Origin: Lumbricus terrestris | Taxonomy: Eukaryota > Annelida > Clitellata > Crassiclitellata > Lumbricidae | NCBI GenBank assembly: GCA_949752735.1 | Contig: OX457039.1 | Span: 21,870,830 to 21,934,829 of the forward strand | Direction: 5' to 3' | DNA length: 64,000 nucleotides | Part shown: piece by piece, positions 10,693-63,881 of the stretch | Layout: each line of letters starts with the position of its first letter | How positions within the stretch are numbered: the first letter of the stretch is position 1 | Translations under genes and position numbers: made by a program | Notes under the pieces: generated by a model | Told to the model about the DNA's origin: nothing | What the model saw: the letters and a program-made list of their open reading frames with translations, nothing else | Database searches by the model: none

Positions 10693-10698
10693 GTAAAA

Positions 10699-18495: not shown

Positions 18496-18503
18496 CAGAT
18501 TGG

Positions 18504-18535
18504 GGGTAATACGAATCCTCGGGGCGGGGCGGATC
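18504..18535 (+). repeat. Left TIR of Mutator-like element
   Basis: 32 bp identical to the reverse complement of 38153-38184. It merges directly into the 42-bp unit array, whose core (CTCGGGGCAGATCGACGGGG) resembles the TIR interior (CTCGGGGCGGGGCGGATC). Confidence 0.93.
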
Positions 18536-19215
18536 GGCGGGGCGGGGCAAAAACACTACGAATCCTCGGGGCAGATCGACGGGCAGGGCACAAGCAACGA
18601 GTGCTCGGGGCGGTTCGGGGCAAATCGACGGAGCAGGCACAAACAACGAATGTGAACAGGTCGGATAGACGGGGCAAGGCAAAAACATAAATAATCCACG
18701 ACGGGGTAGGGTAAAGGCATAGCACATGCTCGAGGCAGATCGACGGGGCAGCGAAAAAACATAACACATGCCCGGGGCAGAACGACAGGGCAGGGTAAAA
18801 CATAACACATGCTCGGGGCAAATCGACGGGGCAGCGAAAAAACAACACATGCTCGGGGCAGATTGACTGGGCAGGGTAAAAAATATAACACATGCTCGGG
18901 GCAAATCGACGGGGCGGGCAGCGAAAAAAAATTACCCATGCTCGGGGCAGATCGACGGGGCAGGGTAAAAACATAACACATGCTCGGGGCAGATCGACGG
19001 GGCAGCAAAAAACATAACACATGCTCGGGGCAGATCGACGGGGCAGCGAAAAAACATAACACATGCTCGGGGCAGATCGACGGAGCAGCGAAAAAACATA
19101 ACACATGCTCGGGGCAGGTCGACGGGGCAGCGAAAAAGCATAACACATGTTCGGGGCAGATCGACGGGGCAGCGAAAAAACATAACACATGCTCGGGGCA
19201 GATCGACGGGGCATG
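18536..19215 (+). repeat. Left subterminal array of ~42-bp GC-rich units
   Basis: Tandem units of the form CTCGGGGCAGATCGACGGGG followed by CAGCGAAAAAACATAACACATG. The first units next to the TIR are the most divergent; the inner ones (18960-19215) are near-identical. The unit length is a multiple of three, so several frames stay open; I treat these as non-coding. Confidence 0.93.
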
Positions 19216-20200
19216 CATGCAAACATAGGCGAAAATTTTTTTGAGCCTTTTTTGATAGGAGAGTTATTGAAATTACCTCTGTTCATAGGCGGAGACTTGT
19301 TCATGGTTTTAGGGGACTGTCAGATGTATATACATGAACTGATAGGGGCGTGTCGTTCAATATGTATATGATGGAATAACTTATATTATATATATATATA
19401 TATATATATATCATGTCATAGACTAGGTAATGATTGGACACCAGAACATTAGCAATTAGCCAATCAAATTGTATAATAGGATTTTATATTGTTTGTCTGT
19501 GTATATATGTCTTGAATTTACATAATAAAATTAGTCAGACTCTAATCTTTGTTGGAGTGGTGACTCGTGGAGCTGTAAGCAGTCACTGAGGTGGCTGGGG
19601 CTTACAGGGACGTACTCGCAGTCAAAGGCCGATCGCCGAGCAGGGAAGGGCCGATGGGACTTGGGGAGGGTATGTGCTCCTAACCATTTTCGAATATTTT
19701 CTTGCCACACTGCGATGGTAGCATCTTAGGTTGCAATTTTTACGAAATTGTCGTGGTTTAAGACTTGAAAGCATCCCTGCTGTTGTTTTTAAAATTTTCC
19801 ACACGACATGAAATAGTGACATTTTCAACTGTTATCTCATCAAAATTTTCCATTATTTCATTGTTTAAAGACACGATTTAATACTTCCAAAAATGTTCTT
19901 CCCAATTGTTTAAAAGATTTGATCACTCTTTGGATCAACATGTAATTCTTCTTGAATCCACAAGAATAAAAGCACAATCTTCGTTAGCATGGGCATCTTG
20001 GAGCAGTCTCCCCTAATTAGGTCTACACTCAACAGACTCAAATTTTGCACAAGAAATAAAAAAATCTGCCTACATTAACCACTATTTAGTGAGCCAATAT
20101 TGACATTGTGAAAGATAGTTTTTCAAATAGTTATCATAGACAATTAATTTAGTCAGGGCTGTTAATAGCCTATGTTAATTAACGCATACAAAACAACATC
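19216..20200. other. Non-coding, with (TA)n tract
   Basis: No gene recognised. A pure TA microsatellite lies at about 19384-19411. Confidence 0.6.
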
Positions 20201-22440
20201 CAGCTTTTTTTAATGCAAAAAAAGTAAAAAGCACAACATATCTCGAGGAGAGTTCTTCTCACTATCTCTTAAACAGCCTTGGCACGTCGGTTGAAACAGA
20301 ACTCGGCAAAAATATAAAAGTATTTCTTTAAAAAACCCATCCACACTTCAAAAGGATATTTGCAAAAAGTCAAAGGCAAAACAAGTCACGAAAAGAAACA
20401 TGTTGTCACTATTATTATTATTATTATCAAACGTCCACACTGCAAAACCATATCGACAAAAAGGAAAGAGCACAATATGTCACCAAAAGAAACATATACA
20501 GAGTGGGCCATAAACAACTAACCCCAACCGCTTTTAACCGATATCGTGGCCAAAAATAATAATTTTAAAATGAAACTTTACAGTCTTAAAGACAATTCAT
20601 ATTTACGTACAATTCTCAAAGTTCAAAAAAATATTTCAAACAGAACAAAAGTTATATAACTTTTAGTAAGGCCACCCACCGTTTTTTAACATTTAGAAAC
20701 GCAACAAAAAACAAAATAAAACCGATGTAATTATTCCCACCAATAACTTGGCCGGAAGTAAGAATTTCAAAATGATATCTTACAGGCTTAAAGACAATTC
20801 ATGTCTACACATGATGGCCAGATTTCAGCAAAAGATTTCAAACAGAATAAAAGTTACATCACTTTTAATGAGACCACCCACCGTTTTGACCATTGAAAAA
20901 CGTAACGCAGCAAAAAGTAGCAAAAGCACGATTTTATTAAGGTAAAGGGGTTAAGACAAGTTAAGCAAGATCCTGACGATATGAGCAACCTTTACTCTGA
21001 TAAACAGTGATCTCGAGCGCAAAAATTAAGAGTTGAGAGTTAAGAGATTTGCCGTGAATGAAAGGAGATTGTTCTAATTTCATTGTGAAAGCCAATGGCA
21101 CAAAATCTCCGGATTTCAACCTCATGGATTGACACTCAATTGCAGAGAGCTAAGCTGGAGAAATATCACAATCTGCAACCAAAACCAGGAGCGGTAAGAG
21201 AATTGATGGGCGCATTGGAGTTAATATGGGAAGATTTGCCTTTGTAACGCATCAACAGGGCCATCAAGAACTTTGCAAAGACACTCAAAAGAAGTTTTGC
21301 ACTGGTCGTGGGCACATTGAACACAAGTTGTGGAGCACAAATAAGATCATTTGACAACAGTTATTTCAGATTTGACTTAATAAAATCTTTTTTCTCACTT
21401 TTTGCTGCGTTACGTTTTTGAATCGTTAAAAAACGGTGGGTGGCCTCACTAAAAGTTGTGTAACTTTTGTTGGGTTTGAAATATTTTGATGAAATCTGGC
21501 CATCATGTGTAAATATGAATTGTCTTTCAGACTGTTTAAAAAACCGTAGGGGGTTGCTTTTTATGGCCTACCCTGTAGTCGCTATATCTGAGGTAGCCAT
21601 GGCAATTCGCCTACACACAGAACTTAGGAAAAAATGCAATTAATCCTTACTATGATCAGACACATGTCCAAACTTTACAATCATGCATAAAAAGGAAAGA
21701 GCACAACATGTCATCAAACGAAACACATCATCACTGTATTTCAGGCGCACCATGACAAGTCCTTTAAATGCAAAACATTGTATAAATATGCAAGTAATCT
21801 TTCCCACTGTGAGACATATTATGTCCGCACTTCAAAACCATACGTAGGCCAACAAAACGTAAAGGGCACAATATGTCACTAAAAGAAACATCTAGTCACT
21901 ATATCTGAGTTAGCCATGTATATCACTTAAACACAAAACTTTCCATATAATTATGCAAGTAAGATGTCCAGAGTTTAAAATCACATGTACACGAAGTAAC
22001 GATCCTAACCATCATTCCATGTAAACAATCATCATATTTCTACAACTGATACAGCTACGGCAAGTAATTTAAATTCATAGCACTGTAGAAATCTGAAAGC
22101 AATCTTTACTACCGTGAGACAAACGTTCACACTTCAAAACCATACGTAGAACTGCAAAAAGTAAAGAGCACAAGATGTCACAAAAAGAAATACGTAGTCA
22201 CTCTATCTGCGGTAGCCATGGCAATTTGCTCAAACACAGGACTTTACAAAAATGTTTCAGTAATCCTTACAAATATGATACTGATAACACATACAAAAAC
22301 GTGAGGAGCCCACCATCTCACCGAATGAAACACACCATCATTATATCTCAGGCAGCCATGGCAACTCATTTAAAAACAGAACTTTACAGAAAATGTGCAA
22401 GTAATCCCTGCTACCATGAGGCAAATACAAAATATAAATC
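20200..22440. repeat. Degenerate tandem repeat block interrupted by a mariner
   Basis: Diverged units share 'CAAAACCATA', 'AAAGAGCACAA.ATGTCA', 'AAAAGAAACAT' and 'GTAGCCATGGCAA'. Copies are seen near 20340, 20450, 21690, 21840, 22140 and 22300. The unit length is about 200-300 bp and irregular. No coding sequence. Confidence 0.6.
20508..21577 (+). mobile_element. Decayed mariner transposon
   Basis: The ends are inverted copies over some 200 bp: ACAGAGTGGGCCATAAA at the left and the complement of TACAGGGTAGGCCATAAA at the right, with matching CCACCCACCGTTTT and GACAATTCAT.T segments. The left repeat is present twice (20508-20735 and 20735-20945). Between them the plus strand has remnants of a transposase C-terminus: KSPDFNLMD, then LRELMGALELIWEDLPL and INRAIKNFAKTLKRSF. 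PDFNxMD is the region around the third catalytic Asp in mariner transposases. Stops and frameshifts make it inactive. A related end fragment is at 54670-54905. Confidence 0.75.
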
Positions 22441-22575
22441 TATAAGCACATACGTATATATATATATACACATAGACACATACACATATACACACATACA
22501 TACATACATCCATACGCACACACACCCATATATGCACACACAAACACAGCCATATACACACATACACGCATAGAA
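22440..22575. repeat. Alternating purine-pyrimidine microsatellite
   Basis: Interspersed TA, CA and CATA units (ATATATATATACACATAGAC and so on), immediately downstream of the protease gene. Confidence 0.85.
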
Positions 22576-22585
22576 ACACCTATTC

Positions 22586-22819
22586 TCATCTGTCCACTAG
22601 GTCTTGGACACGACTCAAGTCACTCAACCGTTCTGGTGGTGTTTGGTTCTTTCTGAGCCATGTCTCAACTATCGTCCTTCTGACTTCCTCCTGCACGGGC
22701 GCCTTAAGGTACTTTTGGCTGTCCTGGTATTGTAGATCGTTTTGTGAGCTTTGCACTACTTGGGGCAGCGATTTTCGGTATTGGTAATTCAATAACATTT
22801 TACTGTGTAACTTGTCCAT
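22586..22819 (-). CDS. Small ORF overlapping the end of the protease gene (77 aa)
   Basis: An ATG at 22819 opens MDKLHSKMLLNYQYRKS to RVQDLVDR with balanced amino-acid use (VQEEVRRTIVETWLRKNQ). A strong acceptor-like tract (CACACCCTGCAG|G) ends at 22822, so this could be an alternative last exon that replaces the protease C-terminus, or a chance ORF. It overlaps the protease stop by 20 nt in another frame. No family recognised. Confidence 0.35.
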   Translation of the reverse strand: MDKLHSKMLLNYQYRKSLPQVVQSSQNDLQYQDSQKYLKAPVQEEVRRTIVETWLRKNQTPPERLSDLSRVQDLVDR

Positions 22820-23745
22820 CCCTGCAGGGTGTGCACAAGAAAGACTGCCGTTTGTCTCGCACTGCCTTGTCGAATGCACTGTCAGACAAAGCTGTACACT
22901 TCGGATGAAACCATTCGCGACATGCTGTGCACTGGATCATCCCCTGCCCTGGTAAATGCATCTGTCTACATGAACAATAAATTTTCTGCTGCAGGTTGAA
23001 TGAAATGGCCTTTCGGACAGTTCTGTGGGAAAGACTTGGAAACGGTGTTATGTGTTTAACGACAAAACAGTGTAACAAATGCTTTCTCAGTCTGTTTTGT
23101 TCATACACCACATTAACTGGATCCTGATCCATACAAATGCTGGTTGCATATGCTAGAGCCAGCAATCCACAGTCAACTCCACCCTTCTGTCGTTCAACAT
23201 TCATACACTCCATAGCGATAGCAGATTCGGCACTAAGACAAAGTGCTGCTATTTGGTTCTTGATGCTGACGGTTGGTAATTGATGCAAGCTATCGTAGAT
23301 GCGCACAGTATTCTTGCAACAGTTTTTTGATGACACTGTAACCCAATGATTACTGCCGTTGAAAAGTACTTGACAAAACACCTTGTCTTTACAATGGATA
23401 CGCAGAGCCTCTACCATGAGTGGATCAGACAGGCCGTCAACATCGGGAAATTCTTTTCGCAGCAAGAGTTGGCCAGCATGTATTATCCTGTCATTTAACC
23501 AATCACTGTCTGATTCCAGTATTTTTCTGTCGGACTCATGTAGCATTAATTCTCGGATCCAGAGTGGGTCTTCAGTTCCATCCGGTGATTGCTGCAATGC
23601 TCGCAGCAGATCATCTTCGTCCAGCGTAGTGTCAACTCTAATAACGTCAACAAACCTTCGCCTAATCTTCTTGGGTGTAGACGTCGCTAAAGGTGCAGCC
23701 CGGCACTTGAAAGCGTCTGCCGCGTCTGCACTTGGTTCGTCATTG
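22800..23745 (-). CDS. ULP1/SENP-type cysteine protease with PHD finger, main exon
   Basis: Acceptor TACACAG|C ends just above 23745; the frame is open to a TAA at 22800-22802 (about 314 codons). The start NDEPSADAADAF joins upstream mini-exons in phase. The C48 protease core has WLNDRIIHAGQLLL, GSNHWVTVSS (His), VRIYDSLHQLP (Asp) and KGGVDCGLLALAYA (Cys), the standard ULP1 His-Asp-Cys order. After about 60 residues comes a Cys4-His-Cys3 PHD-like finger: YCSCRQ, IQCTACREWFHPKC and FLCTPC. Known ULP1 proteases cut SUMO or related modifiers in the nucleus; PHD fingers read histone tails. All key residues are present, so it may be active. The same class of protease is carried by some plant Mutator-like and by KDZ elements. 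It lies downstream of the transposase on the same strand. Confidence 0.85.
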
Positions 23746-24314
23746 CTGTGTATTTACAAGAACATTACATCTAACTGAAACAGCTTCAAAAATTGCATAC
23801 TCCACCACACATCAGAGTAAATGAGGTTGCCTTTATAAAAAAAGGCTAAAGTAAGTCGAGTTGTAATAACATCGTAACTGTGTGATATGCAACAATTTCA
23901 AGTCATTTTCATTTCACAAAATGTGAAAAATAAGGAAATGAAAAAATGGAAAGAATTAAAGAAATGAGAAAAAAATTTAAGAAATATAAAAATTTAAATT
24001 TCTTTTAAAATAGGAAAAATTATGAAATTAATAATTTAAAAAAGGGAAAAAATGAAGAAAATGAAGAAATTACAAGATGAAAAAAGAACAAAATGTTTAA
24101 AAAATTGAAATCATAAATGTTTAAAAACATGAGAAAAAAGGAAAATGTAAAACAACAAAATAAAGAAAAGAAAGAAAAAGAAAGGAAAAAGATCCCAAAA
24201 CAAAATAAAAACAAGAAAAGAATTTTTTTGAAACAGACAGTAAAATAAAAACATTCACGGATACCAGAGATATTCTAGTATATAGGCCTGCCCTGTCCAT
24301 CGTCTGTCACTAAC

Positions 24315-24398
24315 CAGCTCTCAATGTCCGGCAGAAATGAGTCGTCCTTGACCAATGGGGTTGATGGTTTAGACGGCAAATGCACTTGTTTCGGAGTC
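24315..24398 (-). CDS. Protease mini-exon, copy 1 (84 nt)
   Basis: Acceptor TTCTTATTAG|G and donor AGCTG|GTTAGT bound 84 nt encoding TPKQVHLPSKPSTPLVKDD, SFLPDIES. It enters and leaves in the same phase, so any number of copies keeps the frame. Confidence 0.65.
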
Positions 24399-24602
24399 CT
24401 AATAAGAAACATAAAAAAAAGCACTCGTACACAGAAGTTTTCAGGAAGTCAGCGGTATTCGCTTTAGTTTCTTGCAATTAACTATCATAGTGACATGTGT
24501 CTGATGCTCATAATTTCCATTCAATCGACCGTACGACACCAATCAACTTCATTACCCATTTAGGACGGACAAGTAAAATATTACAAAAAATTGAAATAAG
24601 AA

Positions 24603-24935
24603 ATGTTTCAGAACTTTGGCTGTGCTCCGTCATACTTGCGTGATCTTTGCTGTCCAGTCTCTGACGTTGCAGCGCGTCGTGTACTTCGCTCTTCGGCTAG
24701 GGGTGAACTTCTGGTCCCGCGGGCCCGCTTAGCTATTAAGCAGAGCCGTGCTTTCTCGGTTGTGGGGCCTACAGTCTGGAACGACCTCCCGATTACGCTT
24801 CGCTCTCTACTTGTGGCCCATCCGGCTGGGTTCTACAAGTCTCTGAAGTCTTTTTTCTTTGTTCGTGGTTGGGCTGGGAGCGCCTCTGAGTAGTTTCTTG
24901 AAGGGGCGCTATATAAATGCTATGAATGAATGAAT
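24603..24935 (+). pseudogene. L2/CR1-like LINE 3' end
   Basis: Codes YLRDLCCPVS, ARGELLVPRARLA, SRAFSVVGPTVWNDLPITLR and ends GWAGSASE-stop. The 3' UTR GAAGGGGCGCTATATAAATG is followed by (ATGA)n. This is the conserved LINE tail LVPRA, R.FS..GP..WN.LP. It is inserted inside the tandem exon block. Only the 3' tip is present, so the copy is 5'-truncated. Confidence 0.88.
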
Positions 24936-25087
24936 GAGAAAAAAGGAAAATGTAAAACAATAAAATATAAAAGAAATAAAGAAAAATAAAGGAAAAAGGT
25001 ACCAAAACCAAAACAAGAACAGAATTTTTTTTGAAATAGACAGTAAAATAAAAACATTCACTGCCCTGTCCATCGTCTGTCACTAAC

Positions 25088-25171
25088 CAGCTCTCAATGT
25101 CCGGCAGAAATGAGTCGTCCTTGACCAATGGGGTTGATGGTTTAGACGGCAAATGCACTTGTTTCGGAGTC
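25088..25171 (-). CDS. Protease mini-exon, copy 2 (84 nt)
   Basis: Same splice sites and same peptide as copy 1 (KQVHLPSK). The downstream intron differs because a 30-bp block after the exon is missing here. Confidence 0.6.
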
Positions 25172-25571
25172 CTAATAAGAAACATAAAAAAAGCACTCGT
25201 ACACGCAAGTTTTCAGGAATTCAGCGGTATTCGCTTTAGTTTCTTGCAATTAACTATCATAGTGACATGTGTCTGATGCTCATAATTTCCATTCAATCGA
25301 CCGTACGACACCAATCAACTTCATCACCCATTTAGGACGGACAAGTAAAATATTACAAAAAATTGAAATCAGAAATGTTTAAAAACATGAGAAAAAAGGA
25401 AAATGTAAAACAATAAAATATAAAAGAAATAAAGAAAAATAAAGGAAAAAGGTACCAAAACCAAAACAAGAACAGAATTTTTTTTTGAAATAGACAGTAA
25501 AATAAAAACATTCACGGATACCAGAGATATTCTAGTATATAGGCCTGCCCTGTCCATCGTCTGTCACTAAC

Positions 25572-25655
25572 CAGCTCTCAATGTCCGGCAGAAATGAGTC
25601 GTCCTTGACCAATGGGGTTGATGGTTTAGACGGAAAATGCACTTTTTTCGGAGTC
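25572..25655 (-). CDS. Protease mini-exon, copy 3 (84 nt)
   Basis: Acceptor TTCTTACTAG|G, donor GTTAGT. It encodes KKVHFPSK in place of KQVHLPSK. The open frame and splice sites are intact. Confidence 0.6.
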
Positions 25656-26055
25656 CTAGTAAGAAACATGAAAAAAGCACTCGTACACGCAAGTTTTCAG
25701 GAATTCAGCGGTATTCGCTTTAGTTTCTTGCAATTAACTATCATAGTGACATGTGTCTGATGCTCATAATTTCCATTCAATCGACCGTACGACACCAATC
25801 AACTTCATCACCCATTTAGGACGGACAAGTAAAATATTACAAAAAATTGAAATCAGAAATGTTTAAAAACATGAGAAAAAAGGAAAATGTAAAACAATAA
25901 AATATAAAAGAAATAAAGAAAAATAAAGGAAAAAGGTACCAAAACCAAAACAAGAACAGAATTTTTTTTTGAAATAGACAGTAAAATAAAAACATTCACG
26001 GATACCAGAGATATTCTAGTATATAGGCCTGCCCTGTCCATCGTCTGTCACTAAC

Positions 26056-26139
26056 CAGCTCTCAATGTCCGGCAGAAATGAGTCGTCCTTGACCAATGGG
26101 GTTGATGGTTTAGACGGAAAATGCACTTTTTTCGGAGTC
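26056..26139 (-). CDS. Protease mini-exon, copy 4 (84 nt)
   Basis: Same coding variant as copy 3 (KKVHFPSK). It is the first mini-exon in transcription order. Confidence 0.6.
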
Positions 26140-26353
26140 CTAGTAAGAAACATAAAAAAAACACTCGTACAGGGACGTTTTCAGGAATTCAGCGGGATTC
26201 GCTTTAGTTTCTTGCAATTACCTATCATAGTGACAATTGTCTGATGCTCATAATTTCCATTCAATCGACCATAATTATGACACCAATCAACTTCATTACC
26301 CATTTAGGACGGACAAGTAAAATATTCAGCTGATTTCACATAACATTAATCAC

Positions 26354-26425
26354 CTTTCCAAATGCTCAATGCTGGACTGTGCACGCTTCATCGGCTGTTC
26401 AGAACAATTTAACTCGCCACCATTC
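26354..26425 (-). CDS. Upstream protease exon (72 nt)
   Basis: Acceptor TTTCTAACAG|G and donor GGAAAG|GTGATT bound 72 nt encoding NGGELNCSEQPMKRAQSS, IEHLE. It enters and leaves in the same phase as the mini-exons. An internal Met could be a start; otherwise a further 5' exon, or splicing from the transposase gene, is needed. Confidence 0.5.
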
Positions 26426-26582
26426 CTGTTAGAAACATTTGAAGTACGCAGATAATTGATTAGGTTTTACAACACAGCAGTGACGTCATTTCAGGTTTGT
26501 CCAGGGTTGGGGGCGGCAAAACAAATTGTATTCGTGGACGATAAAGTTGTGGCCCTGTTTTGGTTCCTTAAATCTTTTAAAA

Positions 26583-26651
26583 ATTACAAAACCAAACCTC
26601 ATAGAGAAGCATATAGTTATTTGCTTCTCTGTGAGGGTTGGTTTTGTAATT
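26583..26651. repeat. Imperfect hairpin (miRNA-like or tiny MITE)
   Basis: Arms of about 33 nt, TTACAAAACCAAACCTCATA and its complement with four mismatches (GAGGGTTGGTTTTGTAA), are separated by a loop of about 4-6 nt. Size and pairing resemble a miRNA precursor, but a short palindromic MITE is equally likely. Confidence 0.4.
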
Positions 26652-26968
26652 TGCAAATGCGCTGACATACATGTTATAATTTGGAAATGTCCTGAAGATC
26701 AGGGGAACAAAGAACCATTATTTCGTCAAATCCAATTATAATTACTAATATACACCATATCTATAAAGTTCAAAATCTGGAAATCATGGTGGGGCAATTG
26801 CCCCCTGCCTCTCACCCAATGACGTCCCTGTAACACAGCACTTGCATCAACAATTAAAAAGCATCAAATAATGGTGATCTCTGACAAAGAAGATGTGCTG
26901 ATTAATAAACTTAAGTCGGATATAGGTGGCAATGAAGTATTCATGTTTCAAAGAGTAATGGAGGAAAC

Positions 26969-27146
26969 TTAAAGTGCCCATAAAAGTAAATGCAATGACC
27001 TCCAGGTGTGCATAGCTACATTGATAGAGAAGGATAAATGTTCGCTTAAAACAAACTGAAGTGTGCATTCGGCGTCCCGAGCTGCAATGTAGGTCAGGTC
27101 CCCAAGACGAGGTTTCTTTCGACCTGAGACTTTGTCAGCTCTCTTT
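26969..27146 (-). CDS. Transposase exon 5
   Basis: Acceptor ACTTGTGCAG|AAAGAG. It codes KRADKVSGRKKPRLGDLTY and stops at 26969-26971. An internal, weak donor at 27000 (CTGGAG|GTCATT) is in phase with the protease exon at 26425. Confidence 0.7.
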
Positions 27147-30100
27147 CTGCACAAGTTATACAAAAGACAGGTGCCAATGAAGTAAACAATTTGCAAACAA
27201 CAGACAATATTCAAACGTTAAATTACAACAAGTGTGCATCTTGTCAAGTCATATGTAATTGAGATGGTAGGTACAATTTTATGGTGATACTGAGTAAAGA
27301 ATATAAGAAGAAAACATAAGAGTTTCATCTACAATATCAAGACAATGCTTTGTCTATTTGTTGCCATAGAACTTATGGTAATTCGGCATTGTGGTTAAAC
27401 CAAAATGAATACTAACTTACACTGCCTATTTAATTTTTTCTGTCATAAAAGTGCTATACCTTGATCGCTTTCTCAAAGTGCTGAGCATCAGAACTTTACG
27501 TTCAACAATTGCCAATCCAATGCTTCGCATAGCTGCAATGATGTGACAACACCTTTTCGAAGCCGGACACGTGCAGGATTCCTTTGGAAACAAATGCACT
27601 GCATGCGTATCACCACCACCCGTTGTTACTGTAAAGACTTGCTGTTGTGGAACGTGGCATACGGTTAGGCTACTAGCGAGCACATTGATAGATGCAGGAA
27701 TTGGTTGCTTGGTTTCACCAGACAGAGATGCTCGCAATCTGTCCATCATCGCACATATGTCATGCTCTGAATAGTCCTGAGCAGACTGAGCTGTAGCCAC
27801 ATTCACAGCTACAACAAATGTACAAAAACGTAAGAAATTGTCTGAAATTACTGGACTTCTGCTACCGTATTGTTACTGGCAGCGATGGCAGTCAACTGGA
27901 AGTATTCTTCAAACATAAATTGCTACTGTACAGATCTCATTTTGTAACTTCCTTTTTTGTCATCATTGTCATCATAACGTAAGTTTGGTATCTTGCTGCT
28001 GTGTACACATTGTATGATAATAACATGCCGTGAGTAAACAAAGATTAGTAGGAAACAGTTACCATTGCAAGCTTGATCTCTAAGGAAGCTACCTCAATTT
28101 GTTTGCTTTCAGTTGAAACTACACGTTGAAAGTTGTAATTACACATGGTAAAAAAATAGTAAAAGAGAAATGTAATTACTCATCTCTTAAGCAGAAAATT
28201 GTAACATAGTTGTTGTGCAAAGATACTAACAGCAGGTCTTTGTAGTGTCAACAGTGTAAGGTCCAAATCCTTTTAGGCTCCTTGTGATTTGCGACTTGTA
28301 AAACACCTGCATCTTTTGCAACACCAAAACCATTGCATCAATGGAAACTTCTTGCCAGTCCTGGTGGCGCTTCAGGACTCCATTGAACGATTCTGAAATA
28401 TTGTTTGTGACCGATTCCAGAGAGCTGTTAAGTGATTTCAGGTAACCAGTGTATGCTGAAAGAACTCTAGTTGACAAGTATCTGGTGTAGTAATCCTTGA
28501 AAAGTTCAGTCCAAGTAGTACTGAGAGTCAACAATTTGGACTTGTACTCCTCCAACGCTTGACACTGTAGCAGCTCATGAATGGTACTCTTGTAAATGGC
28601 AATCTCAGTTGCGCATACATGGTGTTTCTTCAGCCATACTTCAACGTCAGTGAGAATATGATTCCAGCATGACACCATATTCCAGTGCGGAAATGTCGAA
28701 TTTATTGCATTAACAGCAGCCAATTCTCCATCGGTGACGACAATGGGAGTAAAAGTGGATGTCACATGCTTTTTCAAGTTCTTGAACAATGTCAGATGTG
28801 TCTCTTCAAATTTTCGGTCATGAACAAGAAAAGCCACGGGGAAGCAAGGGCGTTCGACGAAAGCTTCAACCTGCGCCACCAATGCCGATATGTAGAAGTC
28901 TCCAAGATTGAATGTTGTGTCATAGGACAACATAAACAATGATGCCTTCTGCATGACTTCAGTGAAGAATGGCATACCACAAGTCACAATCAGATCGGGA
29001 TAGGTTGTGATTGACCAAACGAATCCTGGTAGCATGTAAGCCAATTCATGAAGTGTTACAAAGTCGTCCTTGGACACTTTAGCGGCAGAGTTGATCGACG
29101 TCTTAAAATAAGACACTTGATTGACATTTCTAGGCTGAAATTGAACAGGCTCGCAGGTGGTCTCAATCTGCACATTCTTGAAAGTGTCATGACCACTTTT
29201 AAGCTTTGCAACGAGAGATGGAGCACTTGGAAGGAAGTTGATGCCTCGTGTAGAATTACCTACATGCAACAGTTAATTAAATTATCAATGATTTACAGTA
29301 ACTCTGTCAGACACTGTTACAGTCAACTCTCTGTAATGGACTCCTTGACCCTGAAAATACTAAAATCGACGCTTAATTTGTTACTGTAGCTTATATGTGA
29401 GCTCATAGATGCAAACTTGTTACTTTTGGCTGCTATCTTGAAGTCTTTGGAAATTTTAGCTGGCTCCCCTACTAACAATAATTAATTAGGTGAGGGGAGG
29501 GGGAGAGGGAGGTAGGGATGGAGATGGAGTGCTCTTTTCAGCCACTGCAACGCGTGGCCGGGTATAAGTGTTTATTCTCAGCAGCGTTTAGTTTTCTTTA
29601 TTCCACATCTCTGCGGCACCTCAGCTGTTGATTTGGAATTAGCAGTAACAACACTGCAACACACATAGGCCTAGACCCAAAAATTATCAGACATCCGACC
29701 CGATTTTTTGTCAGCGGTGCAGTTTTTCAGACGGGGTCAGCCGGTGTCACAAAAATAGAGTAGGCCTACCTCCCGTATTAATCTTATTTCCCCAGATGAA
29801 GAACAGTTGAAAATGCCACTTCCGCGTGCATTTATTTTTGCAAATTGACTTCCATCTGCTTCTTTGAACGATGACACTAACGGGTATAATGTTTATTCCC
29901 ACCATATAGAAAACTTTGTTTGCTTTTGGTTTTAGAGCACTTAGAACATTTAGAACACTTATAAGAATTAGCACTTAGGCTAGAGCCACTAAATGAATGA
30001 TAGCTTTAAGGGGATCGAATATTCCGTGACACAGGCATGGGTGGATTTAGCAATTGGCTTGATGTAAACCACCCTCCCCGCCCCTCCTGGCTGTATGTCA

Positions 30101-32983
30101 GAGCCCCTAAGACCAGACGCGCTGGTCGTGGAGGGTTGCCATAACAGTGCACATCATTCATTCTAGGTTCAACTGTTTCTCCCAAATAGTTATGTTCTGT
30201 CTATATATGAGTGGAGAGGGGCCGGAGGAGTAAAGAGAAACACACACAACATCGACCGGTTTGCCATGGAAGATTGACACGTGACCCTGACTTGACCCTC
30301 ACCGAGCTTACTCTCCCATTCTGTTTCTCCCAAATAGTTATGTTCTGTCTATCTATGGTACATGTATATGAGTGGAGACGGGCCGGAGGAGTAAAGAGAA
30401 ACACACACAACATCGACCGGTTTGTTTGCCATGGAAGATTGACACGTGACCCTGACTTGACCCTCACCGAGCTTACTCTCCCATTCTGAAATGTTTATAC
30501 TCATACCGATGCAGACTAAAAGTTCCAAAGTCCAACAGAATCTTCCCCCCCCCCCCCATGCACAAGCCAATGAGTCCTCATAATTTTAACATCCCAACAC
30601 AACCAGCCAGCTGGCTGTGTTTGGATGACACCCTTAAACAGGCAGCCTATCAATTTCATTGTAGGTCTATAAGCTTTTACGTGTAACCTATCTTCATTTA
30701 TTATTATTGCATCAGAAACATTCGAGTGACAAACCGCAATCAATGAAAAGATACAGGGGCCTAATATTTTATTTTTTCTAAGATAAAAGAAGCTTAATTA
30801 GGCCCTATGTTATTATATATTTTAAAATATTGCATGGGCCTACTAAAACGAGCGGTTCCGTTCATAGGGCTATCAAGTTTCTTCTACCCTCGATGCGAAT
30901 TCTCCTATATTTCGTCTCCTCCGTCCCTGTGATATATTGCCCGACTGACTCACAACGTGTAGTAGATGGGGTTACAGTTCAACGAACCTTGTGACATCTC
31001 AGATAAATTATATATATATGGATTGGCATTCTTCTTTCATCTAGCGGGGTATGATTAGAAGGTGTGACATAACATGTGCCAGGTGGCATCTACAGGAAGA
31101 GCTTATTATTTGGAGACTATCGCTCTAACCAACTTCAGCCAGTGTCAAATATGCTTGTGTATATTTATGCAAATGTATATATATATGTGTGTATATATTT
31201 ATTCTTACGCATCCTATGTTAATTTTAAATAGTTAACTATATAGAATGTAGTGTTTTCCGATAATCACGAAGCGAAACGTGTTGTAATAATTAGAACAAT
31301 GAAATAATGGACATTCCTCTGCAAATACGCGCAGAATCCAGAGGGGCGCACATGCGCCCCCTTGCGCCCCCCTCCGGACGCCCATGCTTGTATCAGCGTG
31401 GTCGAGTTACGGCGCCATATAATTTTTTCGTAATTATCATTATTATTGGTTTTAGACCACTTAGAACATTTAGAACACTTATAACACTTCTAACACCAGG
31501 ACACCATAGTTAATTAATTAGCATTTTAAATATATACTCACTCTTCCTTTTTACCCAAATAGCTGTCTCGTTAATCGTGCTATTTAGTCTCGCTAAAGGA
31601 TAGTCTAGCTACTAATCTAAGAGCCCAAGGCTTAGATTGCCCACGTGCCCCCGGCCAGGTTGTTACGCCACTGTGAATACTATGATACTTGTACCAGCTT
31701 TCTCCATTAACTATAACAACATAAAAGTCCAGGTAATCCTTACCATGAGGAAAATCGACAGCTTCCTTTTCATCACCAACGTAATGTATAACCAAGAAGT
31801 CTGGTTCATTCAATTGTTGATATACAAATTTCTTGAATGTCCCTCTTTTCCCATCTGGCAGACATATCTGGTAATGAATTTTTTTCACCAAAGGTCGATT
31901 TCTTGGGATTAAACTTGACCCATTCTGGCGGAATCGGTAACCATCAGCCAACCAATCTTCTGCAATTTAGGTGAAAGCACAAAGAAAAATGATATTGGCA
32001 TGAATTTAGTTATGCCTCATTTTATATTTCTACGGCACAGAAGCACATAACAATATGTTCCCTAAACAGTCATGGTGCAAAAATCAAACCATTATGTAGT
32101 CGATGAAGAAAAGGGATCTGATGGTTTGTTCCATTCTGCTGGGCCAGCAAGGGTGAATGCTCGCTTTCAAGTTCTCTCAATGAGCGCATGATGGCAACAG
32201 TTCAATGTGATGAAGAACATAGTTCTTCATGAGATGAAATGTACGAGGATGAGGATTACAATTAAACATGAAGGTCAAAATTCATCAGAATCATCATGTA
32301 CATTTACTAACCCTAACCCTTAAAGACATTTACTCAGAAGCTAACCCTAACCCTAAAAGACATCTACTCAGAAGCGCTCCCAACCCAAATATTGCGAAAA
32401 GCAATAGTCTTAAGAGTGGTGTAGATTGATGAAGAAAAACAATACTCTTAAGAGTGGTGTAGATTGTAGAAGACATTACAGTGGCCTGAATCCCGTTCCA
32501 TGTGACAGGGCCCTTTGAAAAGAAGGCACAGCACTCAGAAGTAAAGGTACCAGAAACAAGGGAGCAAATGAGACAGAGCGAGAAAAGCTAGACCAAGGTA
32601 GCTACTCCACAGGTAGTAATGCGCTGCTGCAGTGGAAGCCAGTCCACAACATCTCTCATGTAATCATAAATAGGTCTAAACTTGGGGATCACGGCCAACC
32701 GCCTGCGATGTCATAGGACGACGTTAAACTGTGGATAAATAAAAGAAATAATTGGAGAAATAAAATTAATAATAAAACCAATCCGGCGCGCAGTAAGTGA
32801 GCAAAATAATAACGGTTATTAGTAATGAGAGAATATATTACTGCTTTTTCCGCCGTTTGTGTTAACAATAAACACATCTCCGCCGTCGGGCTTGGAAAGT
32901 CTTTCGACTGCCTCCGATCGTCTTGTATTTAGGATATCGATAACTTTATCGATACTTAAATTTTCAGCTTTAAGTAACGCCAT
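26969..32983 (-). CDS. Mutator-like transposase, five-exon model (about 637 aa)
   Basis: Exons 32983-32842, 31959-31744, 29259-28231, 27808-27460 and 27146-26969 join with matching phases (142+216+1029+349+178 nt = 638 codons). N-terminal residues 1-120 (GYRFRQNG, KKIHYQICLPDGKRG, FKKFVYQQL, LVIHYVGDE) resemble a CG-1-type DNA-binding domain; this is my inference. The DDE core follows: SYDTTF (Asp233), VVTDGE (Asp296), SCWNH (Cys317/His320) and NNISESFN (Glu409). A SWIM finger CTCPASKRCCH is at 541-551, then a basic RKRADKVSGRKKPR tail. All catalytic residues are present and no stops occur, so the gene may be active. It reads away from the right TIR; a CCAAT/E-box module lies just upstream. 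Confidence 0.85.
27460..27808 (-). CDS. Transposase exon 4 (SWIM finger)
   Basis: Acceptor TTGTTGTAG|CTGTG, donor ATCAAG|GTATAG. It contains C-x-C-x5-C-x-H (CTCPASKRCCH). Confidence 0.82.
28231..29259 (-). CDS. Transposase exon 3 (DDE core)
   Basis: Acceptor GCATGTAG|GTAATTC, donor CTGCT|GTTAGT. It holds all three acidic catalytic residues and the C-x2-H motif. The donor is weak but phase-correct. Confidence 0.85.
29260..31743. other. Transposase intron 2 with nested repeats
   Basis: Non-coding. 29735-29985 is a dispersed repeat related (inverted) to 53091-53340, with TTAGAACATTTAGAACACTT. 30176-30322 and 30323-30486 are a recent tandem duplication of about 150 bp (GTTATGTTCTGTCTAT, AACATCGACCGGTTTG, CACGTGACCCTGACTTGACC). 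A C-run lies at 30546-30557. 31440-31490 has another TTAGAACATTTAGAACACTT copy. Confidence 0.7.
31744..31959 (-). CDS. Transposase exon 2
   Basis: Acceptor AAATTGCAG|AAGATTGG, donor CATG|GTAAGG. It codes DWLADGYRFRQNG through EAVDFPH, the main part of the CG-1-like domain. Confidence 0.8.
31960..32841. other. Transposase intron 1
   Basis: Non-coding. Contains two short CTAACCCTAACCCT tracts (32310-32365) and a duplicated CTTAAGAGTGGTGTAGATTG (32410-32465). Confidence 0.6.
32842..32983 (-). CDS. Transposase exon 1
   Basis: ATG at 32983 (MALLKAENLSIDKVIDIL...), ending in AAAAAGCA|GTAATA. The only ATG consistent with the frame downstream of the promoter module was chosen. Confidence 0.75.
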
Positions 32984-33027
32984 TGTAACGACGCTACGGA
33001 AAAGAATCGTCTACGATGCGACTCGAT

Positions 33028-33104
33028 ATTTTCGAAAGACACTACGAAACCTCGGATCAGCCACGTGACCGCGCTGACCAATCAGGCTGTGCCCCGATGA
33101 TCCG
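33028..33104 (-). promoter_or_regulatory. Putative transposase promoter module
   Basis: 77 bp upstream of exon 1 with inverted CCAAT (TGATTGGTCAG) and an E-box (GTCACGTGGC). It is duplicated with few differences at 38082-38158, next to the right TIR. Confidence 0.55.
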
Positions 33105-33245
33105 ACGATGGAACAGCGGATGGTAGGGGCAGCCTCCCTTGGGCGTACGGTTCGTAGGGGTGCGATGATTGATGCGTCATGGATAGTAAACTCTTGTCCC
33201 GTTTGAGTTTTCCGGCAGGCACCCGTAGGCCTGGCTTCTGTAGAG

Positions 33246-33420
33246 CAGCGGTTCTCAACCTTTTCACACTGACGGACCCCTTTTTCATTTTTGGTCCCGG
33301 TCACGGACCCCCACCGAAATTTGGCGCCTTTAGCGCATTATCGTGACTGTGCGACTCTATAATCCTATATAATAGTAGGCCTACATGTAGGCCGTATGCT
33401 ACAATACAGCATAGATATGC
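33246..33420. mobile_element. hAT remnant (one end only)
   Basis: Begins CAGCGGTTCTCAACC and continues with ACGGACCCCTTTTTCATTTT and TTTTGGTCCCGGTCACGGAC. It is an inverted match to the right end of the hAT element at 62574-63873. No matching second end was found. Confidence 0.7.
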
Positions 33421-34480
33421 CTAGACCTGGGAGTCGACCCCAATAAGTCGACCCCAGTCGACTTGGTCATCCCAAGTCGGGTCGGGTCATTTCTGCTCAC
33501 CGCAACTGACCCCAAGTCGAATTTTTTAGATAGAAGTCACTTGAAGTTGTTTTTACCTCAAGTCGACTTAAACCGACTTGAGACACAAACATAGTTAAAT
33601 TTGTCACTTCAAATCAATGATTTTGACAACATTTAAGCAGCTTTTGTTGCCTAGTGTGTTTGCAAGAATGAATGAGGCCTTTGTAGGCCTAATGTTATGC
33701 TTAAACGTCATGCGCTTAATTAAAATGGTGAAACAAAATGTTAGCCTACTAAAATATTAGCACGTGTGCTTATCAAGCAATCAGTGAGCTTCCATGCAGT
33801 GGTCAGTGAATTCGGCGCAAAGAAAGCTGGATCTTCAAGGTCAAATCGGTAGTTTGGCGATACTTTGGAGCGCTGCAGACGGAAAAACTATTGTAGGGCA
33901 AATTGGACAATGAAAGACTTTACTGTCAGTCAGTTGGCCTAGTAGCTGTAGTAGCCTACTGTAGGATGATGCGCTTGCAACGCTATATGCTAAGTTGCGA
34001 AATGATGCTATAGGGGCCAAATAATTATGAAAACAGAATAACAAATTACGCTTATCATAACCACGTAGGCCTACGCCATTCAGTGCAAGGGATAGGCTAC
34101 CGGTAACGGACCGCGGTCCGCTATTTTATCTTAAACCTTGCGCTTTTTACAAATTTATTTAATATTAATATTAAATAATAATAATAATGAGTGTAATCTG
34201 AACAGCCTAATCGCAAACAATGGACAAGCTAGAATTCATAGGCCTAAATAATTTGCCGTCGCATTGTCTAGGTTACTATAGATGGCCCAAAGCATCACGA
34301 ACTATTAAAACTGAAACACGAACAGCTTGAAATGGGCTTAATAACACTTTAACAAAATTAATTCATGCATCAATTATGTGTTGAGGTCTCATTACTCATT
34401 TGGGCGCCTAAAGGAAATTAATGCTTGCGGGAAAATTAGCTTGACTTCTTTTAGCCGTACGTAGACCTGAAGGCTAATGG
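33421..34480. other. Non-coding between hAT remnant and right array
   Basis: A cluster of GTCGAC/AAGTCG motifs at 33430-33590 (AAGTCGACCCCAGTCGACTT) may be a decayed repeat. Several TAGGCCTA palindromes. No gene. Confidence 0.5.
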
Positions 34481-34489
34481 CTAGTACCA

Positions 34490-37440
34490 TGTCAGAAGCA
34501 TGTGTTATGTTTTTTGCTGCCCCGTCGATCTGCCCCGAGCATTTGTTTTGTTTTTACCCTGCCCCGCCGAACTGCCCGAGCATGTGTTATGTTTTTTCGC
34601 TGCCCCGTCGATCTGCCCCGAGCATGTGTTATGTCTTTACCCTGCCCCGACGGCAGCCCCGTCGATCTGCCCAGAGCATGTGTTATATTTTTACCCTGCC
34701 CCGTCGATTTGCCCCGAGCATGTTATATTTTTTCGCTGCCCCGTCGATCTGCCCCGAGCATGTGTTATGTCTTTACCCTGCCCCGACGGCAGCCCCGTCG
34801 ATCTGCCCCGAGCATGTGTTATGTCTTTACCCTGCCCCGACGGCAGCCCCGTCGATCTGCCCCGAGCATGTGTTATATTTTTACCCTGCCCCGTCGATCT
34901 GCCCCGAGCATGTTATATTTTTTCGCTGCCCCGTCGATCTGCCCCGAGCATGTGTTATGGTTTTACCCTGCCCCGTCGATCTGCCCCGATCATGTGTTAT
35001 GTTTTTTCGCTGCCCCGTCGATGTGCACCGAGCACGTGTTATGTTTTTTTGCTGCCCCGTCAATCTGCCCCGAGCATTTGTTTTGTTTTTTACCCTGCCA
35101 CGTCGATCTGCCCCGAGCGTGTTTGTTATGTTTTTTCGCTGCCCCGTCGATCTGCCCCGAGCATGTGTTATGTTTTTACCCTGCCCCGTCGATCTGCCCC
35201 GAGTATCGGTTTTATGTTTTTACCCTGCCCCGTCGATCTGCCCCGAGCATGTGTTATGTTTTTACCCTGCCCCGTCCATCTGCCCCGAGCATGTGTTATG
35301 TTTTTACCCTGCCCCGTCGATCTGCCCCGAGCATGTGTTATGTTTTTACCCTGCCCCGCCGAACTGCTCCGAGCATGTGTTATTTTTTTCGCTGCCCCGT
35401 CGATCTGCCCCGAGCATGTGTTATGTTTTTTCGCTGCCCCGTGGATCTGCCCCGAGCATGTGTTATGTTTTTTCGCTGCCCCGTCGATCTGCCCCGAGCA
35501 TGTGTTATGTTTTTTCGCTGCCCCGTGGATCTGCCCCGAGCATGTGTTATGTTTTTTCGCTGCCCCGTCGATCTGCCCCGAGCATGTGTTATGTTTTTTC
35601 GCTGCCCCGTTGATCTGCCCCGAGCATGTGTTATGTTTTTTCGCTGCCCCGTCGATCTGCCCCGAGCATGTGTTATGTTTTTACCCTGCCCCGTCGATCT
35701 GCCCCGAGCATGTGTTATGTTTTTACCCTGCCCCGCCGAACTGCTCCGAGCATGTGTTATTTTTTTCGCTGCCCCGTCGATCTGCCCCGAGCATGTGTTA
35801 TGTTTTTTCGCTGCCCCGTGGATCTGCCCCGAGCATGTGTTATGTTTTTTCGCTGCCCCGTCGATCTGCCCCGAGCATGTGTTATGTTTTTTCGCTGCCC
35901 CGTTGATCTGCCCCGAGCATGTGTTATGTTTTTACCCTGCCCCGAACATGTGTTATGTTTTTACCCTGCCCCGCCGAACTGCCCGAGCATGTGTTATGTT
36001 TTTTCGCTGCCCCGTCGATCTGCCCCGAGCATGTGTTATGTCTTTACCCTGCCCCGACGGCAGCCCCGTCGATCTGCCCAGAGCATGTGTTATATTTTTA
36101 CCCTGCCCCGTCGATTTGCCCCGAGCATGTTATATTTTTTCGCTGCCCCGTCGATCTGCCCCGAGCATGTGTTATGTCTTTACCCTGCCCCGACGGCAGC
36201 CCCGTCGATCTGCCCCGAGCATGTGTTATATTTTTACCCTGCCCCGTCGATCTGCCCCGAGCATGTTATATTTTTTCGCTGCCCCGTCGATCTGCCCCGA
36301 GCATGTGTTATGGTTTTACCCTGCCCCGTCGATCTGCCCCGAGCATGCGTTATGTCTTTACCCTGCCCCGTCGATCTGGCCCGAGCATATGTTATGTTTT
36401 TTCGCTGCCCCGTCGATCTGCCCCGAGCATGTGTTATGTTTTTTCGCTGCCCCGTCGATCTGCCCCGAGCATGTGTTATGTTTTTTGCTGCCCCGTCGAT
36501 CTGCCCCGAGCATTTGTTTTGTTTTTACACTGCCCCGCCGAACTGCTCCGAGCATGTGTTATTTTTTTCGCTGCCCCGTCGATCTGCCCCGAGCATGTGT
36601 TATGTTTTTTCGCTGCCCCGTCGATCTGCCCCGAGCATGTGTTATGTTTTTTCGCTGCCCCGTCGATCTGCCCCGAGCATGTGTTATGTTTTTACCCTGC
36701 CCCGTCGATCTGCCCCGAACATGTGTTATGTTTTTACCCTGCCCCGCCGAACTGCCCCGAGCATGTGTTATTTTTTTCGCTGCCCCGTCGATCTGCCCCG
36801 AGCATGTGTTATGTTTTTTCGCTGCCCCGTCGATCTGCCCCGAGCATGTGTTATGTTTTTACCCTGCCCCGAGCATGTGTTATGTTTTTACCCTGCCCCG
36901 CCGAACTGCCCGAGCATGTGTTATGTTTTTTCGCTGCCCCGTCGATCTGCCCCGAGCATGTGTTATGTCTTTACCCTGCCCCGACGGCAGCCCCGTCGAT
37001 CTGCCCCGAGCATGTGTTATATTTTTACCCTGCCCCGTCGATTTGCCCCGAGCATGTTATATTTTTTCGCTGCCCCGTCGATCTGTCCCGAGCATGTTAT
37101 GTCTTTACCCTGCCCCGACGGCAGCCCCGTCGATCTGCCCCGAGCATGTGTTATATTTTTACTCTGCCCCGTCGATCTGCCCCGAGCATGTTATATTTTT
37201 TCGCTGCCCCGTCGATCTGCCCCGAGCATGTGTTATGGTTTTACCCTGCCCCGTCGATCTGCCCCGAGCATGTGTTATGTCTTTACCCTGCCCCGTCGAT
37301 CTGGCCCGAGCATATGTTATGTTTTTTCGCTGCCCCGTCGATCTGCCCCGAGCATGTGTTATGTTTTTTCGCTGCCCCGTCGATCTGCCCCGAGCATGTG
37401 TTATGTTTTTTCGCTGCCCCGTCGATCTGCACCGAGCATG
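34490..37440 (-). repeat. Right subterminal array of ~42-bp units (about 2.9 kb)
   Basis: Around 70 units by length of TGTTATGTTTTTTCGCTGCC and CCGTCGATCTGCCCCGAGCA, the reverse complement of the left array. Variants (TTTTTACCCTGCCCC; CCGACGGCAGCCCCG; CCGCCGAACTG) recur in blocks at about 34560, 35970 and 36900, showing higher-order duplication. Very long ORFs in all three forward frames are a by-product of the 42-nt period. Confidence 0.95.
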
Positions 37441-37499
37441 CGACTCTTCAACCGTCTTCGTGCCGAGGACGTAGGCCAGTCAAAAATACGGGAAAGTCA

Positions 37500-38047
37500 A
37501 CATGAACCCACTCATTTACTATGGCAGACCGTTTTTGGAAACACCTTCTTAACCTACAGTAAAAATCCGAATGAATTCAAACATGGGGAAATATGTTTAA
37601 ATCGGTAATCATTATGATGCAAATTATGACTGTGTAGTAGGCCTATAGCGTTTCGCATGGTCATGGCCTATGCATTATGACCGTGGCCTTAAGTGCGTGG
37701 TAGTTATCGACCACAGCCTGCAGAGTTCTTGCATAAAATTTTATTTAATTTTGTCTCCAAGATCGACATTTACATTGTTCAGATAATAAATATATTAATC
37801 GATATTTAATTTGTTTAAATCGGCAATTTCACTGCATTTCCCGCAGATAAATCGTATTTTCGCCAGTACTTGAAATGTAAACAAACTCGTATAGGCATGA
37901 CTGTTGGTCGGCTGTTCAAAACTAAATTCAAAATTTTAATTATTCCCTATATCGCATTTTGTTAGGAATTCTACCATATATTCTTTAGTCCATTTAGAAA
38001 CTTTTCGTGCAAAAATTTGCCTGCCATAGTAAATGAGCGGGTTTAAG
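37500..38047. repeat. Inverted-repeat element near the right TIR
   Basis: CCACTCATTTACTATGGCAG at about 37506 is repeated inverted as CTGCCATAGTAAATGAGCGG near 38020. The AT-rich interior has no ORF. Possibly a MITE; no clear target duplication. Confidence 0.5.
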
Positions 38048-38081
38048 ACTTAATTGACCGGATTAAGGGTTGAAGAGAGAG

Positions 38082-38158
38082 ATTTTCGAAAAACAATACG
38101 AAACCTCGGATCAGCCACGTGACCGTGCTGACCAATCACTCTGTGCCCCGATGATCCG
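38082..38158 (-). promoter_or_regulatory. Second copy of the promoter module at the right TIR
   Basis: Same 77-bp length and the same CCAAT and E-box as 33028-33104, running straight into the TIR. This is probably the ancestral location. Confidence 0.6.
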
Positions 38159-38184
38159 CCCCGCCCCGAGGATTCGTATTACCC
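38153..38184 (-). repeat. Right TIR of Mutator-like element
   Basis: 32 bp exactly complementary to 18504-18535, followed by the CAGATTGG duplication. Confidence 0.93.
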
Positions 38185-38317
38185 CAGATTGGTGCGAAAT
38201 GGAGATATACAAATTGAGCAGAATGGCACAGGAGAGAGACAAGTGGAGACGGATGGTGAATCATGCGATAGACACCAACGGGCACTGAGCCCATGGACCG
38301 CAATGATGATGATGATG
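38185..38317 (+). pseudogene. 5'-truncated LINE, part 2 and microsatellite tail
   Basis: After the second CAGATTGG copy the frame resumes as DWCEMEIYKLSRMAQERDKW, RRMVNHAIDTNGH and stops at 38286-38288. A (GAT)n tail follows at 38303-38320, the usual LINE 3' end, then the ATTGGTTGTGGA duplication. Confidence 0.88.
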
Positions 38318-41090: not shown

Positions 41091-41330
41091 AGTGAAGCCA
41101 TCATATACTTTACAAGCATTATTTTATCAATTCGTTCATTAGGTCGGTCTACTTTTTTGCATCGAGGGTTTCATCAATCATTTTTCGCTTTATAAAGGGT
41201 TCTCTATGGTCACGTGACTATGGTGGTTGGATAAAATATGACCGGTGAATATTTAAAACAAATCATGTAATTACAGCTAGTTTTAATACTCAATTTTTCA
41301 CTGCAATTGTTCAATCGTATTCGAATAATA

Positions 41331-42500: not shown

Positions 42501-42623
42501 TACGAGAGATCGGCCCCAACCATCCACCGATATTCATCAACGAACAAGTTGTTCGTTGATGAATATCGGTGGATGGTTGGGGCCGATCTCTCGTAATCGT
42601 AATCGTAAACTCGAAATTTCTAA
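42473..42623. repeat. Near-perfect 151-bp palindrome
   Basis: Two 75-nt arms with no mismatch around a single G at 42548. The left arm is the 3' tail of one LINE fragment, and the right arm leads into another. Confidence 0.93.
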
Positions 42624-42629
42624 TTTGGA

Positions 42630-43145: not shown

Positions 43146-43148
43146 ACG

Positions 43149-43313
43149 AAACGTACATCGGATATATTCTTCAATGCGCGGAAACTCCTAAGAAGTAAGA
43201 AAATCGCCGGAGCTTGGACGATGAATGGGCAAGTCTACATCAAACGAACGGCTTTGGCAAGCGAGAAACCCATCCGAATCGATGACCTCAGTGACCTGCC
43301 GAAACCTGACTAA
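43149..43313 (+). pseudogene. LINE ORF1, C-terminal part
   Basis: Resumes as KRTSDIFFNARKLLRSKKI, GAWTMNGQVYIKRTALAS and ends LSDLPKPD-stop. One nucleotide out of frame with the first part across the insertion. Confidence 0.82.
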
Positions 43314-63873: not shown

Positions 63874-63881
63874 ATCTAACG

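Follow-up and report, generated by a model that had tools for sequence, protein, structure and literature searches.

We analyzed a stretch of 64,000 nucleotides from the annelid Lumbricus terrestris (assembly GCA_949752735.1, contig OX457039.1, positions 21,870,830 to 21,934,829 of the forward strand), hereafter called the window, and found that it harbors a 19,681-bp element (18504-38184) with its coding parts on the minus strand. Very likely, this element is a Mutator-like DNA transposon (Mutator-like element, MULE) that would transpose by cut and paste and carries one predicted gene for a single fused protein, in which a CG-1/WRKY-like domain, a DDE catalytic domain, a SWIM-like zinc finger, a Ulp1-type protease and a PHD finger follow each other in that order. 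The left and right terminal inverted repeats (TIRs) are identical at 32 of 32 bp, and the element is flanked on both sides by the 8-bp target site duplication CAGATTGG, which has no third site in the window. Two matches for an 8-mer in 64 kb are at chance level (68 of 100 shuffles reach as many), and hence the weight of CAGATTGG lies in its position and not in its number. Removal of the element together with one duplication restores a single frame of a long interspersed nuclear element (LINE), reading DDITDW-CEMEIYKL. An initial annotation made from the sequence alone had reported the perfect TIRs, the 8-bp duplication and the restored LINE frame, and all three were reproduced in the window. 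The features of the element are as follows.

18496..18503, plus strand: left target site duplication CAGATTGG, 8 bp
18504..18535, plus strand: left TIR, array-type end, 32 bp
18727..19214, plus strand: left subterminal array, 12 units of about 42 bp (18504-18726 passes from the TIR into the unit)
22800..23745, minus strand: E7, C48 (Ulp1-type) protease and PHD finger, ending in a stop codon
24288..24398, minus strand: E6d, fourth copy of a 111-bp phase-symmetric linker exon, with a non-canonical GC donor
25061..26326, minus strand: 2.6 tandem copies of 484 bp with 97 % matches, holding E6a-c
26139-26029, 25655-25545 and 25171-25061, minus strand: E6a, E6b and E6c
26354..26425, minus strand: E5, putative linker exon derived from phases and splice sites, not in the second coding copy
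27057..27146, minus strand: E4, basic KVSGRKKPR stretch, 3' end uncertain
27460..27808, minus strand: E3, SWIM-like zinc finger
28231..29259, minus strand: E2, MULE DDE catalytic domain
31744..31959, minus strand: E1, CG-1/WRKY-like domain, predicted to bind DNA
32842..32983, minus strand: E0, predicted first coding exon with the ATG at 32983 (ATG context also in copies L011 and L018)
33025..33104, minus strand: internal copy (74/80 bp) of the 80 bp adjoining the right tip, 41 bp upstream of the predicted ATG
34497..37440, minus strand: right subterminal array, 64 units
37459..38152, no strand given: right-end block
38153..38184, minus strand: right TIR, CACGTG-type end, 32 bp
38185..38192, plus strand: right target site duplication CAGATTGG

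The assignment to Mutator-like elements, proposed in the initial annotation, is borne out by the TIRs, by target duplications of 8-9 bp and by the MULE profile PF10551, which matches 28226-29272 (minus strand) with an E-value of 2.8e-8 (34.6 bits, cut-off 27.6). The DDE triad of the model consists of D233, D296 and E409, of which D233 and E409 are invariant and D296 is nearly so in 12 aligned sequences, the window model among them. The cysteines and the histidine of the SWIM-like finger (C541, C543, C549 and H551) are likewise invariant in 12 aligned sequences. C48 and PHD profiles both match 22800-23753 (minus strand) above their Pfam cut-offs, PHD with 26.8 bits against 24. His133, Gln186 and Cys192 of the E7 protease are invariant in six sequences and the catalytic Asp of a YDSL motif is present, so that the earlier claim of a ULP1-type protease with its catalytic residues and a PHD finger is upheld. 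A KDZ identity was set aside, since the DDE domain matches MULE above the cut-off; neither the exons nor the E0-E4 part of the model gave a KDZ family in Pfam, the presence of a KDZ model in the library being unconfirmed. NCBIfam returned merely IS256-type and similar matches far under the cut-off.

The transposase has a further N-terminal domain, missed earlier, which is predicted to belong with CG-1 and is modelled like WRKY. The CG-1 match over E0-E1 of the window covers profile positions 10-113 of 116, the relative P0047 matches CG-1 above the cut-off (24.8 bits), and 5 of the 15 members of alignment A2 match it at E up to 1. The best match of the family profile among PDB entries is WRKY4 (E 0.0097), and WRKY domains rank first for the predicted structure of E1 in Foldseek. 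By profile the head may resemble the CG-1 domain of CAMTA proteins, and its predicted fold comes nearest to the WRKY transcription factor domain. WRKY domains use a C-C-H-H pattern of zinc ligands. These four ligands are not retained in the head, which sits on a transposase: E1 has a single Cys, which is not conserved in the aligned relatives, and no terminal H-x-H. WRKY-GCM1 domains are known from transposons. We found no literature tying a CG-1 domain to a MULE transposase, in a search outside which most subscription journals and Repbase Reports lay. Tentatively, and with considerable doubt, the head could be seen as a link between the CG-1 domain of CAMTA and plant WRKY, with CG-1 being a zinc-less domain of WRKY fold that came from a fused Mutator-like transposase.

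Eight exons (E0-E7) are readable on the minus strand with compatible phases throughout, GT donors for E0-E5 and AG acceptors for E1-E7. The 111-bp exon E6 is present four times, three times inside the 484-bp tandem repeat, and because E6 is phase-symmetric its copy number is free to change without loss of frame. With one E6 copy the predicted protein has 984 residues. By eye, one copy of the 484-bp repeat lacks a 29-bp stretch at the 3' border of the 111-bp exon, and the splice donor therefore varies among the exon copies. Inside an intron, at 24600..24893 (plus strand), lies what we take to be a C-terminal fragment of a LINE-like reverse transcriptase; DNA resembling it is found at 48224-48423 of the window.

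For protein relatives we scored the top word-sharing candidates (7991 for the whole model and 7998 for the transposase part), and the resulting counts are lower bounds. At least 2 proteins match the whole model at E 0.01 and at least 68 match the transposase part at E 0.001. Among the matches listed, Hydra proteins are the closest relatives with a species name (41-48 % identity, transposase part), and relatives without one reach 62 % identity over 58 % of the query. The 64-kb window holds no Rfam family at the gathering score and no tRNA, and a scan of viral contigs with E2, alignment A1 and a 24-base array core revealed no relative.

As suggested in the initial annotation, further copies were sought in the assembly. 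A 27-bp core of the TIR, searched in the 1.056-Gb genome, gave 42 matches, 37 of them perfect, while the reversed pattern used as a control gave 0. From the perfect matches, 34 of 37 combine into 17 pairs of 1.2-24.2 kb, window element included, and the 16 other paired copies were fetched at full length. Three unpaired perfect matches (one of them fetched, L028) and five imperfect ones are excluded from the family counts. The TIRs are perfect over 32 bp in 16 of the 17 copies and over 29 bp in the remaining one; 32 bp is short for a MULE. Target duplications differ among sites and fit the 8-11 bp of MULEs: 13 copies have exact 9-bp duplications, two (the window copy among them) exact 8-bp ones, one has a 9-bp duplication with one mismatch and one has none. 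Hence 9 bp is the usual length, and the 8 bp of the initial annotation does not hold as a family trait. The transposase gene is present in 2 of the 17 paired copies, of which the window copy alone has it whole; the rest of the genome may hold others. The 15 gene-less copies share sequence with the coding copies mostly at the ends, and several have interiors in common. Gene-less copies are usual for non-autonomous derivatives. Copies without genes had been named beforehand as a finding that would speak against the initial annotation; most copies are indeed of this kind, which weakens it. Of the 17 other copies that were fetched (L028 counted among them), 11 contain the right-end block (37459..38152) in full or for the most part, at about 94-99 %. 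The longest copy (24.2 kb, G000:C5:24358373-24382586, L023-L025) has perfect 32-bp TIRs, an exact 9-bp duplication and no transposase match, and by eye its interior contains many simple repeats and LINE-like fragments.

The second coding copy (14.5 kb, C5:28164291-28178795) has an exact 9-bp duplication of its own. Across E0-E4 and the retained part of E7 it differs from the window copy at 6 of 2488 bases (0.24 %) without any indel, compared to 72 of 7317 bases (0.98 %) and 16 indels outside the exons (Fisher p 1.1e-4). Since the exons differ less than the rest, the gene was under constraint. Within E0-E4, 5 of 608 codons differ, two silently and three not. Two coding copies under constraint would fit recent mobility of the element.

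The same copies bear on whether one protein or two are encoded. In the initial annotation the ULP1/PHD part was an accessory protein; the transposase would then stop after E4 and a separate ULP1/PHD protein would begin in or near E7. Such an arrangement would suit the gap of about 3.3 kb between E4 and E7 with its weakly supported linker exons, the single long open exon that forms E7, and the state of the second coding copy, where E0-E4 are open but E7 is cut. It is at odds with the phases, which are compatible along the whole exon chain, and with the relatives P0005 and P0016, which hold both parts on a single chain in the same order. P0005 matches MULE and PHD above the cut-off and C48 below it, P0016 matches PHD above and MULE and C48 below, and their C-termini align with E7 over 231 residues (P0005, 35 % identity) and 255 residues (P0016, 30 % identity). 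Moreover, Hydra P0002 crosses the junction, running from SWIM through KSGRKKPRPGD into the protease start. Because the phases fit and two relatives are single chains, the ULP1/PHD part is, judged by sequence, very probably the C-terminus of the transposase, and a separate accessory gene, which we regard as unlikely, was set aside. MULEs that carry their own ULP genes are known from plants, as are Kaonashi/FARE elements. A gene found in just 2 of 17 paired copies, one of them with a cut protease, might also be read as a dead relic or as a domesticated host gene within repeats. We hold this to be rather improbable in view of the perfect TIRs and the duplication, the open exons and the exon constraint between the two copies.

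Several observations nevertheless weigh against a mobile element that encodes one fused protein. The 3' end of E4 as well as E5 and E6 are deduced, and the donor of the E6 copy used in the model is a non-canonical GC. From the second coding copy, E5 and E6 are gone together with the first 284 nt of E7, and thus either the protease is dispensable or this copy is damaged. Residues 735-984, the ULP1/PHD region, match nothing at E 1e-3 among 626 candidates. In P0005 and P0016 the protease residues His, Gln and Cys are kept and a Cys stands where the catalytic Asp is expected, so that their protease may be altered. The DDE half of the intact-looking DDE+SWIM transposase of the initial annotation stands, but SWIM in 27426-27872 (minus strand), despite its invariant ligands, stays under the Pfam cut-off with 16.0 against 19.6 bits. 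Similarly, the CG-1 match of the window reaches 17.6 bits against a cut-off of 23.5, E1 by itself has no Pfam match at E up to 1, and Foldseek gave no row for the E1 model at E 0.001 or better. Finally, the copy without a target duplication is L016.

The right end of the element has a counterpart inside it. The 80 bp at 38079-38158 and at 33025-33104 are identical at 74 positions, and with this second occurrence of the 80 bp adjoining the right tip, 41 bp upstream of the ATG, an old terminus now appears to be internal. From the internal copy the outermost 26 bp of the tip are missing. L011 and L018 have the same 80 bp behind the right tip, followed by the same leader and ATG context; counted from the tip, their ATG lies at base 157. 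These gene-less copies (L011 at 7609-7779, L018 at its right end) show what looks like an earlier arrangement of the end. A 25-bp piece of the leader occurs once in the window, at 37438-37462, the junction of the right array and the outer block. We consider 33025..33104 a likely displaced old terminus and promoter. In the simplest history that the sequences suggest, the start of the gene was once about 157 bp inward from the right tip, and the end was duplicated, with the 64-unit array between, before the two coding copies split; the internal copy may well stem from an old swap or duplication of an end. Promoters within TIRs are known from MuDR.

The array units occur nowhere else in the 64-kb window, and shuffles gave 0. 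The unit resembles the left outer 50 bp of the element more than 1000 of 1000 shuffles and the right 50 bp more than 998 of 1000, while its likeness to the bare 32-bp TIR is weak, exceeding 975 of 1000 shuffles only (25 of 1000 reach it). At the left end, TACGAATCCTCGGGGC of the TIR lies at 18510-18525 and recurs at 18557-18572, where it opens the next unit. The likeness between unit and tip is therefore mainly a matter of the left end, and the earlier description of a unit resembling the TIR applies to the left outer 50 bp and is weak for the 32-bp TIR alone.

Both the internal terminus and the arrays allow other histories of the ends. Since the right terminus has an internal copy, the outermost 5 kb on the right might be a second element nested against the first, with TIRs of different origin. 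The target duplication, however, sits at the outermost ends, the internal tip is incomplete, and the right half is shared by the second coding copy, which has a duplication of its own; we conclude that the whole element moves as one unit and set this nested composite aside as very improbable. Accordingly, the concern raised beforehand that the TIRs might come from two elements did not hold, given 17 pairs and the second coding copy with its own duplication. The arrays could in turn be without a role, an end sequence that was tandemly duplicated and spread through slippage and unequal exchange. This is a real possibility, to which we lean less: unit numbers vary widely among copies (3 to 64 per strand), and higher-order repeats within the array show block duplication, but plus units all lie left of minus units in 17 of 17 copies and the left array passes gradually into the TIR. 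All 17 copies also combine one array-type and one CACGTG-type end.

Under the reading of a Mutator-like transposon with one fused protein, transposition would proceed by cut and paste, with the DDE domain performing the cutting step. The N-terminal domain, as judged from its sequence, may bind the TIR and the tip-like array units, and the arrays would in this way concentrate numerous transposase molecules at the two ends. The Ulp1 part might trim SUMO or a like modifier off the transposase or the target chromatin, and the PHD finger might tether the complex to modified histone tails. Transcription likely starts at the old terminus, which would be internal now because the array block of the right end was added outside it. 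The 15 gene-less copies would be moved in trans.

We compared the element with known systems using the accessible parts of the cited papers. Hydra and lancelet have Mutator transposons that encode Ulp1, and a figure aligns the Ulp1 and PHD of Ginger1 and Mutator transposases (PMC2836005). Compared by description, these animal MULEs with Ulp1 are alike to ours, in which C48 also goes with the transposase, the fusion being deduced from phase and relatives; the parts of PMC2836005 available mention neither a CG-1/WRKY-like domain nor array ends. The "undescribed lineage" of the initial annotation was too strong, given these published elements and Hydra proteins as the nearest named relatives listed. 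Ginger1 shares a cut-and-paste transposase with a C-terminal Ulp1, one listed family having Ulp1 and PHD, and differs by a Gypsy-integrase-like DDE where ours is of MULE type (PMC2836005). Rehavkus, reported from arthropods and annelids, has a PHD finger in the transposase, a minisatellite before the 3' TIR and a 9-bp duplication, a likeness by description and not by sequence (PMC6446971). Here we find the PHD finger (26.8 bits), the array at 34497-37440 and the 9-bp duplication in 13 of 17 copies, the window copy having 8 bp; no word starting with Ulp occurs in the main text of PMC6446971, as far as accessible. Phantom/Muta1 of mosquito and Tm1 of root-knot nematodes share 8-9-bp duplications, many non-autonomous derivatives and TIRs of tandem units, with nine units of 12 bp in Muta1, one to nine of about 14 bp in Tm1, and unit lengths of 12 to about 15 bp overall (PMC5225508, PMC3169594). 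Their transposases have about 500 residues, Muta1 measures 3.2 kb and Phantom has a FLYWCH-type finger, whereas the element described here has 42-bp units, up to 64 of them, and a likely fused protease and PHD finger. FLYWCH is not matched here, and a CG-1 match below the cut-off takes its place; Table 1 of PMC6446971 gives Phantom none, FLYWCH or SWIM. Complete arthropod MULEs span 1.4-10.0 kb (PMC13359780, the accessible main text of which contains no PHD, Ulp, C48, CG-1 or SWIM), and Pack-MULEs of one study were at most 7 kb (PMC6431247). The kind is thus already known, both for Ulp1 (with PHD) on animal Mutator transposases and for TIRs of tandem units, and because Ulp1/PHD Mutators are published our element is a variant within it. 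New, as far as searched, are the combination, the polar ends, the array size and the CG-1/WRKY-like head.

A role of the Ulp1 and PHD parts for the transposase was suggested before (PMC2836005), and the copy with the full predicted gene, the near-identical second copy and the 15 gene-less ones with known ends offer a test system for it. The same copies suit the question whether tip-like arrays raise transposition. They also record the displacement of an end, with a terminus joined to the start-codon context in two gene-less relatives and its internal counterpart here. The CG-1/WRKY link, if true, would bear on the origin of a calcium-regulated transcription factor family.

Further repeats were seen in the window. 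Part of the element (33241-33392) matches the far window end (63711-63878) over 168 columns at 84.5 %. Just outside the element, at 38700-39930, lies a minisatellite of ATCCAGCTTC-containing units whose two halves are in opposite orientation. Long open frames of 263, 868 and 238 aa at 41271-46730 look LINE-like by eye, with a cysteine-rich N-terminus, an endonuclease and a reverse transcriptase, and two adjoining long minus-strand frames (662 and 237 aa) at 8710-11412 appear Gag-like by eye.

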